From Paracoccaceae bacterium (GTDB taxonomy: Bacteria; Pseudomonadota; Alphaproteobacteria; Rhodobacterales; Rhodobacteraceae), in the NCBI GenBank assembly GCA_028284705.1, contig JANQRE010000023.1:62001-126000 (forward strand): DNA of 64,000 bases, read 5' to 3'. The notes beneath the pieces are model-generated. The model was not told the origin of the DNA, did not search any database, and worked only from the letters and a program-made list of their open reading frames with translations. The position numbers and the translations under genes were made by a program. Below are positions 55,538 to 56,004 of this stretch, in pieces. Within the stretch, counting starts at the first letter, position 1; each line of letters opens with the position of its first letter.

Positions 55538-55552
55538 GTTCTATTTTTGTTC
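55538..55552. promoter_or_regulatory. LexA (SOS) box
   Basis: GTTC (55538-55541), seven bases, GTTC (55549-55552): an exact match to the alphaproteobacterial LexA consensus GTTC-N7-GTTC. It sits in the divergent gap between the ferredoxin gene and the DnaE2-like fragment, ending 2 bases before the fragment's first ATG. In alphaproteobacteria such boxes precede imuA-imuB-dnaE2, recA and others. Confidence 0.8.
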
Positions 55553-55554
55553 TC

Positions 55555-56004
55555 ATGCTGCATAACCCGCCACACCGTCTCTATTTTGCCCCCAAACCCT
55601 GGCCGCGCCCGCCCGCCTGTCTGCCCCATGACCGTTTGCAGGAACCACCCAATGGGGCGCGGGTCTGTGTCGCGGGGCTTGTGCTGGTGCGCCAACGCCC
55701 CGGCACCGCCCATGGGGTGATTTTCCTCACGCTGGAAGATGAAACGGGCATCTCCAACATCATTGTCTGGAAAAAGACCTTCGAGCGCTTCCGCCGCGCC
55801 GTCATTGCGGGCCGTCTGTTGCGGGTCACCGGGAAAATTCAGCGCGAAAGCGGTGTCTGTCACATCATTTCGGAAAAGATCGAGGATATCTCCTATATGC
55901 TTGACGATCTTCTGCGCGACACGGGCCATGAGGAAACCTTCCGCCATCAGATCAATATGGACCCCGGCCCCGGTGCGGACAGGCGGGGGCAATCTCGCGG
56001 GTAA
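55555..56004 (+). pseudogene. C-terminal OB-fold fragment of error-prone DNA polymerase DnaE2
   Basis: A 149-residue ORF whose middle (residues about 35-115) reads VCVAGLVLVRQRPGTAHGVI, FLTLEDETGISNIIVWKKTF and LRVTGKIQRESGVCHIISEK. This matches the C-terminal OB-fold of DnaE2, the SOS-induced alpha subunit paralogue of over 1000 residues. Everything upstream (PHP, polymerase, HhH) is missing, and residues 1-34 do not resemble DnaE2. The LexA box directly upstream suggests an imuAB-dnaE2-type locus reduced by deletion, or a stand-alone SOS-regulated OB protein. The ATG abuts the box, so the true start may be later (for example a TTG near 55636). Confidence 0.72.

Follow-up and report, generated by a model that had tools for sequence, protein, structure and literature searches.

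Departures from the usual form of the error-prone polymerase DnaE2 (ImuC) and of its partner ImuB have been described. Timinskas et al. note several DnaE2 proteins without an OB domain, and report a C-terminal SRDF[HR] motif of unknown function in ~77% of DnaE2 (PMC3919608). Regarding ImuB, stand-alone ImuB-C proteins that replace its C-terminal domain are known (PMC6511836, PMC12926913). Here we analyze a stretch of 64,000 nucleotides from a Paracoccaceae bacterium (GenBank assembly GCA_028284705.1, contig JANQRE010000023.1, positions 62,001 to 126,000 of the forward strand), which we will call the window. It contains a small gene, hereafter the OB gene, that encodes a DnaE2-type OB domain on its own behind a LexA (SOS) box, and a DnaE2 core that ends where this domain should begin is encoded on another contig of the same genome. 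We consider it probable that the OB gene is the C-terminal OB domain of DnaE2, detached by gene fission and kept as an SOS-controlled subunit that rejoins the core. The gene and its parts are the following, in coordinates of the window:

55555..56004, plus strand: stand-alone DnaE2 OB-domain gene, 149 amino acids, with ATG at 55555 and stop at 56004, based on an alignment of 54 orthologues
55600..55656, plus strand: N-terminal segment WPRPPACLPHDRLQEPPNG, corresponding to the pre-OB linker of fused DnaE2
55663..55887, plus strand: OB-fold core, residues 37-111 (Pfam PF01336, 6.6e-11)

Residues 22-119 of the protein match the DnaE2 family NF004225 (PRK05672) at model positions 942-1039 of 1047, with an E-value of 7.4e-31 versus 9.6e-7 for the best replicative DnaE model. 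Hence, the best match is the OB region of DnaE2 and not another OB family. The domain-family search reported no polymerase domains in the 149 amino acids, and the single-stranded DNA-binding protein (SSB) family PF00436 reached 15.2 bits, below its cut-off of 26. An earlier, sequence-only reading had taken the core of this open reading frame for the C-terminal OB fold of DnaE2, devoid of polymerase domains, and the matches to PF01336 and to NF004225 942-1039 agree with it. W16, P19, P20 and L28, all within the N-terminal segment, are invariant across the 54 aligned orthologues, and the pre-OB segment is comparable with that of the fused DnaE2 of loci L179 (APWPRPPACL) and L070. An AlphaFold2 model built with the 54 orthologues gave a mean predicted local distance difference test score of 84.3, and the OB core mostly exceeded 90. 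Its top Foldseek matches were general OB folds, including Stn1, RPA and those of aminoacyl-tRNA synthetases, with no Pol III alpha chain among the best. The protein ends in RRGQSRG and lacks the SRDF[HR] motif, as do all 57 stand-alone OB proteins that were scanned to their ends; this set leaves aside L185 of genome G217, whose sequence ends at the locus edge and which has the motif. An xxQP/xxGP-like ending was seen in only 16 of the 57.

A family search of the genome's own assembly (4.04 Mb, 50 contigs) gave three matches: DnaE1 on contig C32, DnaE2 on C9 and the OB gene on C38. The DnaE2 core, at C9:42518-45412, matches NF004225 with 1223 bits (cut-off 939) at positions 4-940 of the 1047, so that core (4-940) and OB protein (942-1039) are complementary on the family model. 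DnaE1, the only other OB match in the genome, had an E-value of 0.35. Read from its likely start MPFVEL, the core protein has 966 amino acids and shows the PHP, DNA_pol3_alpha, finger and HHH_6 domains and no OB domain, while its fused relative at L070 has all five. It retains PDIDVDF, which we take to be part of the active site. The core ends ...HPVALLRHRLTPAA and the first residues of the OB protein are MLHNPPHRLYFAPKPWPRPPACLPHDRL...; G328 has a fused DnaE2 in which the stretches matching this end and this start are consecutive in a single chain, and therefore the cut falls in the inter-domain linker. The SRDF[HR] motif was absent from all 28 OB-less core tails that were read.

We then surveyed 395 Rhodobacteraceae genomes with a completeness of at least 90%, classing DnaE2 by where the family match ends. 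DnaE2 was OB-less in 173 genomes, full-length in 181, absent from 36 and fragmentary in five (G129, G133, G184, G242 and G343, which were placed in no class). A separate OB gene was found in 169 of the 173 genomes with an OB-less core, in one of the 181 with full-length DnaE2 (G250) and in three of the 36 without DnaE2 (Fisher p 5.5e-96 for OB gene versus OB-less core, a value that ignores the kinship of the genomes). Stand-alone homologues, a search for which had been proposed along with the sequence-only reading, are thus present in 173 of the 395 genomes. OB genes were mostly judged by frame length and by the lack of an overlapping DnaE2 match, with 58 of them and a further set read individually. 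Two culturable strains, Silicimonas algicola DSM 103371 (L036) and Kangsaoukella pontilimi GH1-50 (L034), probably belong here too, their OB matches resembling those of G235 and G338, which both have an OB-less core. The best 150 genomes of the OB match list were searched again for DnaE2, 79 (with G016, from outside the 395) and then 71, and one of the 150, G328, proved to be fused. Among the 181 full-length genomes, 144 were classed from two scored candidates each, in which a second, OB-less copy may be missed. G075 and G303, with one OB-less and one full-length copy each, were counted as OB-less, and G123 (match end 918) as full-length. As for the 36 genomes without DnaE2, 15 (13 plus 2) were searched again and 21 rest on the first survey; G226 has a second weak match. 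Three candidate solo OBs were set aside: G202:C29 and G029:C2, whose frames continue into a fused DnaE2 or begin at the edge of a contig, and G356:C40, treated likewise from its untranslated frame only.

Since the survey genomes are related, we repeated the comparison on a DnaE1 species tree. For it, 100 genomes were chosen, 99 from the 395 and G016 from outside, with an OB-less core in 48, full-length DnaE2 in 37 and no DnaE2 in 15; the choice was not random and did not include G250. A minimum of 30 changes in core type and of 29 in OB presence is needed on this tree. It offers 21 independent, well-supported contrasts, in which the OB gene went the same way as the core in 17.5 on average, the opposite way in 0.0 and showed no difference in 3.5 (median p 7.6e-6). 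Wherever members of a genus differ in having an OB-less core, the OB gene follows (11 of 11 genera); in two further genera it differs without a difference in core (G091 versus G419, G084 versus G414). Linkage does not explain this joint inheritance, as in G369 and G173, both assembled into a single contig, ~0.97 and ~2.05 Mb separate the two pieces, respectively, also when the contig is taken as circular. The small genomes G128, G196 and G292 (2.1-2.5 Mb) have retained core and OB gene alike, the latter with its box.

One could argue that the freed OB domain has acquired a new SOS job, either SSB-like or in modulating DnaE1, ImuB or the clamp, and that the OB-less DnaE2 works alone. We rate this, the main rival explanation, as unlikely, and the exceptions to the pairing are what speaks for it and weighs against a split polymerase. 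No OB was found, even by profile, in four of the 173 genomes with an OB-less core (G084, G104, G188 and G204, with assemblies of about 100, 490, 320 and 350 contigs, respectively), and for G084 and G188 the end of the core was read, with no OB behind it. Three genomes have an OB gene and no detected DnaE2 (G091, of ~7 contigs, G101 and G331). G250 has an OB gene possibly beside full-length DnaE2 only, no OB-less core being among its two scored candidates; scoring two candidates overlooked the OB-less cores of G075 and G303, and the same could hold for G250. OB and core pieces can, then, exist apart. Regarding SOS control, the exact LexA box is missing from three of 58 distinct homologues of the OB gene, and upstream of the dnaE2 core only four of 28 split loci have one within 90 bases, 18 others having the variant GAAC-N7-GAAT, which deviates in one base, and six no close match. 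OB-less DnaE3 is also on record beside the OB-less DnaE2 mentioned above (PMC3919608). What a new job would not predict is the co-occurrence in 169 of 173 genomes, the absence from 180 of the 181 with full-length DnaE2 and the zero contrasts in the opposite direction; the protein is, besides, far closer to DnaE2 than to SSB, whose family model it matches below cut-off.

Some further observations concern these exceptions. The OB genes at L223 (G091, no DnaE2) and L230 (G250, full-length DnaE2) carry a LexA box and no OB-less core was found with them; they could be relics, genes with missed partners or cases of a second use. The variant upstream of the core (L181-L206) lies mostly within AGAACAAAA[CG]GTGAATATACT, often flanked by GACTC sites, and the core at L184 has an exact LexA box farther out, at -98.

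The sequence-only reading had also offered a collapsed imuA-imuB-dnaE2 cassette, and had proposed looking for its genes elsewhere in the genome. They are there: the DnaE2 core persists on C9, imuB on C21 and imuA on C36, so a collapse is not supported, and the four genes, OB gene included, occupy four contigs and form no cassette. Exact LexA boxes lie at all four, GTTCTATTTTTGTTC at the OB gene, GAACAAAAATAGAAC at the core, GAACATACAGCGAAC at imuB and GAACAAAATAGGAAC at imuA, and the box of the core is the exact reverse complement of that of the OB gene. The gene on C21, looked at in the window's own genome only, gave a weak Y-family match and is named ImuB from that match and from its place in cassettes. 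The gene on C36 matches the ImuA-like protein beside imuB in L070 at 2.8e-19, and NF033429 with 31 bits, below the 150-bit cut-off. A search of 40 solo-OB genomes found imuA in every one, 39 of them with an OB-less core, and 10 of 12 imuA loci have an exact LexA box upstream (one miss, L207, is a copy with imuB behind it).

A functionless remnant of such a cassette would account for a gene that is only a fragment of DnaE2 and lies away from any cassette. We find this very improbable, given that imuA, imuB and the core are present elsewhere in the genome and that gene, box and neighbour are conserved across the family. The ratio of nonsynonymous to synonymous substitution rates (dN/dS) of the OB gene has a median of 0.21 (range 0.03-0.58, over 1352 unsaturated of 1653 pairs); hence, the gene is under purifying selection, as the conservation of its OB fold had already led the earlier reading to argue. 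The conserved neighbour is the following:

55115..55438, minus strand: divergent ferredoxin-like gene, conserved neighbour of the OB gene, which marks the locus as orthologous

It presumably deserves its name, which we took from the CxxxxCxxC in its sequence, and it is found within 1.5 kb of the OB gene in 72 of 79 loci (some species being counted twice), including the three most divergent. We do not think that it is part of the split-polymerase system.

That split inteins rejoin the two translated halves, in the manner of cyanobacterial DnaE, is scarcely credible, because the core ends 28 residues past the start of VVEDY without any extension, the OB protein has 15 residues before its conserved W, and no intein family was reported in either.

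The region upstream of the OB gene contains three elements:

55538..55552, plus strand: LexA (SOS) box GTTC-N7-GTTC, GTTCTATTTTTGTTC, in the same place and exact in 55 of 58 distinct homologues
55542-55547, plus strand: -10-like TATTTT inside the spacer of the LexA box; the spacer reads TAT[ACGT]TTT in 39 of 55 homologues
55520..55525, plus strand: -35-like TTGCAA, 16 bases before the -10-like element, its promoter role suggested by conservation

The perfect box had been reported 2 bases before the open reading frame, and box and ATG are indeed at those places. It is the sole GTTC-N7-GTTC within the window, where 1.5 would be expected by chance, so that a single box is no proof by itself. The box becomes meaningful because it adjoins or overlaps the start in 55 of the 58 distinct homologues, compared to nine boxes in 376 kb of the same loci, a background of ~0.7% per equal-sized stretch. 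These 58 are the loci that best match the window gene and no random sample; identical cores were merged, and L067 (a 59% match, interpreted as a disrupted fused copy) and L116 (a duplicate of L001) were left out. Further solo OB genes, more divergent and with a readable upstream region, have the exact box in 10 of 11 cases, the exception being L238 of G121. A chance OB-like open reading frame beside a random GTTC-N7-GTTC, one or two of which are expected per window, therefore has a negligible probability, with the box at the same place in so many homologues.

The first in-frame start codon lies 1-3 bases behind the box in 53 of the 55 boxed OB genes, and exactly 2 bases behind it in 42. Besides, the TTGC at box-18 to box-15 is conserved in 95, 78, 89 and 73% of the 55 aligned upstream regions, base by base. 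From the conservation of this TTGC, of the spacer TAT[ACGT]TTT and of the start-codon spacing, we predict a promoter whose -10 element is enclosed in the operator, with transcription beginning on the ATG or close to it. LexA and RNA polymerase would compete at the overlapping box and -10 element. The layout TTGCAA/box/ATG in 55520-55557 of the window predicts a leaderless SOS transcript.

In a weakly resolved OB tree (95 columns), 62 solo OBs form one group (support 84/81), and three divergent OBs of small genomes fall outside it on long branches. A single origin of the split is likely, as far as these trees can tell. The core tree needs three label changes, with G217 branching first below the other split forms, followed by G328 (Shimodaira-Hasegawa-like approximate likelihood ratio test, 84 and 87), and G328 may have re-fused or G217 may have split a second time. 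Near one end of the unrooted DnaE1 tree are G128, G196 and G292 together with the group of G121, G188, G217 and G328, a position that points to an old split within the Rhodobacteraceae. G217 (L253) has the core, then an unrelated gene on the opposite strand, then an OB gene with its own LexA box and the ancestral HPRDQAKRLFPSRDFH tail, and among the split forms read its OB alone retains SRDFH; this arrangement is possibly a transitional form, a snapshot of the fission. In G328, where DnaE2 is fused, the linker already contains the motif WPRPPACL. The open reading frame of this DnaE2 (L179) has 1410 amino acids, with long alanine/proline-rich stretches in the N-terminal third.

At class level, 198 of 387 genomes had a match. 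Among the best 150 rows, matches from outside the family were mostly in frames of at least ~1000 amino acids, and about nine had shorter frames, several of them near contig ends. No split form was confirmed outside the family, G671 being the only one of these nine or so rows that was read, and a split DnaE2 may exist there. The frame of G671 (183) was rejected as a solo OB: core sequence precedes the OB, as in a frameshifted fused DnaE2. Other DnaE2 copies deserve mention. The full-length DnaE2 at L177 (G303) has a long-branched core inside the split branch and an OB that clusters with other DnaE2 of Alphaproteobacteria; it is possibly a mosaic that regained an OB. The contig of L062 is filed as the actinobacterium Enemella evansiae and its DnaE2 groups with Roseobacter-type fused copies, be it by contamination or recent transfer. 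Among 12 plasmid hits (NC_009957.1 of D. shibae and other Rhodobacterales), the OB query falls inside an annotated error-prone DNA polymerase in 11, and H7 is unannotated; the plasmid copies of Rhodobacterales look fused. A cassette on a 126-kb plasmid of D. shibae is mentioned in PMC9426580.

According to the explanation that we favour, fission early in a large Rhodobacteraceae branch would have separated the OB from the DnaE2 core, leaving PHP, polymerase, fingers and helix-hairpin-helix on a chain that stops shortly after the latter. DNA damage would inactivate LexA and release the genes for OB, core, imuA and imuB. The OB domain of C-family polymerases binds the single-stranded template; the OB protein would bind the core non-covalently and hold the template strand, giving a mutasome of four chains. 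LexA binding and induction, the physical association of the pieces, the binding of single-stranded DNA and the role in mutagenesis are what we infer from sequence. The loss of the OB need not break the complex, since the PHP domain and the helix-hairpin-helix region, through which DnaE2 contacts ImuB in an AlphaFold study (PMC12926913), remain on the core. The other option of the sequence-only reading, a small OB protein under SOS control, holds in that the protein is kept and boxed; what it had not seen is that this is the missing domain of an OB-less DnaE2 encoded elsewhere, and that such a split is widespread and its pieces are inherited together.

A more tentative idea, which we regard as doubtful, is that the OB protein is a licensing subunit: a core bound to ImuA and ImuB would be weak until a separately controlled, possibly leaderless, SOS transcript supplies the OB, which might also serve other polymerases. 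If so, mutagenesis would need several unlinked SOS genes to fire, and a diffusible OB could assist, for example, a full-length DnaE2 of recent acquisition, or DnaE1, which would account for its persistence in the few genomes in which an OB-less core was not detected. The role of the OB domain in DnaE2 is, to our knowledge, poorly defined, and this natural cut allows core and OB to be deleted, titrated and mixed separately. An SOS polymerase is dispersed here over unlinked loci and still inherited as one system. As the pieces are unlinked, surveys of DnaE2 that score domains in single proteins may call split enzymes truncated. The computational rule that emerges, that an OB-less DnaE2 is accompanied by a solo OB gene, in most cases with a LexA box, held in 169 of 173 genomes and predicts a new mutasome subunit.

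We found no report of a separate DnaE2 OB gene in the open-licence PMC literature, and an OB supplied in trans is not mentioned in the accessible part of a 2026 polymerase survey (PMC12926913). PMC10421592, PMC9426580 and PMC6473078 had no bearing on such a gene. Like the usual DnaE2 (ImuC), the split enzyme has an OB homologous to NF004225 942-1039 and a core that is an ordinary DnaE2 of the same family; unlike it, OB and core are here two unlinked genes, and the SRDF[HR] of most DnaE2 is missing from the split forms that were read, except for the OB of G217. This genome has all components of the imuA-imuB-dnaE2 cassette, and an exact LexA box at every one, but as four separate units instead of one cassette; the fused relatives with imuB directly upstream (L063, L065, L068, L070 and L178) belong to a separate DnaE2 branch. 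In contrast to the cyanobacterial split-intein DnaE, there are no intein halves at the junction. The stand-alone ImuB-C proteins resemble the OB gene in being a mutasome domain freed as its own gene, and differ in that the domain comes from ImuB and not from DnaE2, and in lineage. Also comparable are the OB-less DnaE2 of Timinskas et al., whose core polypeptide is probably of the same kind, a likeness drawn from the description and not from sequence; the accessible text does not mention a separate OB gene, whereas here the OB is present in trans in 169 of the 173 genomes.
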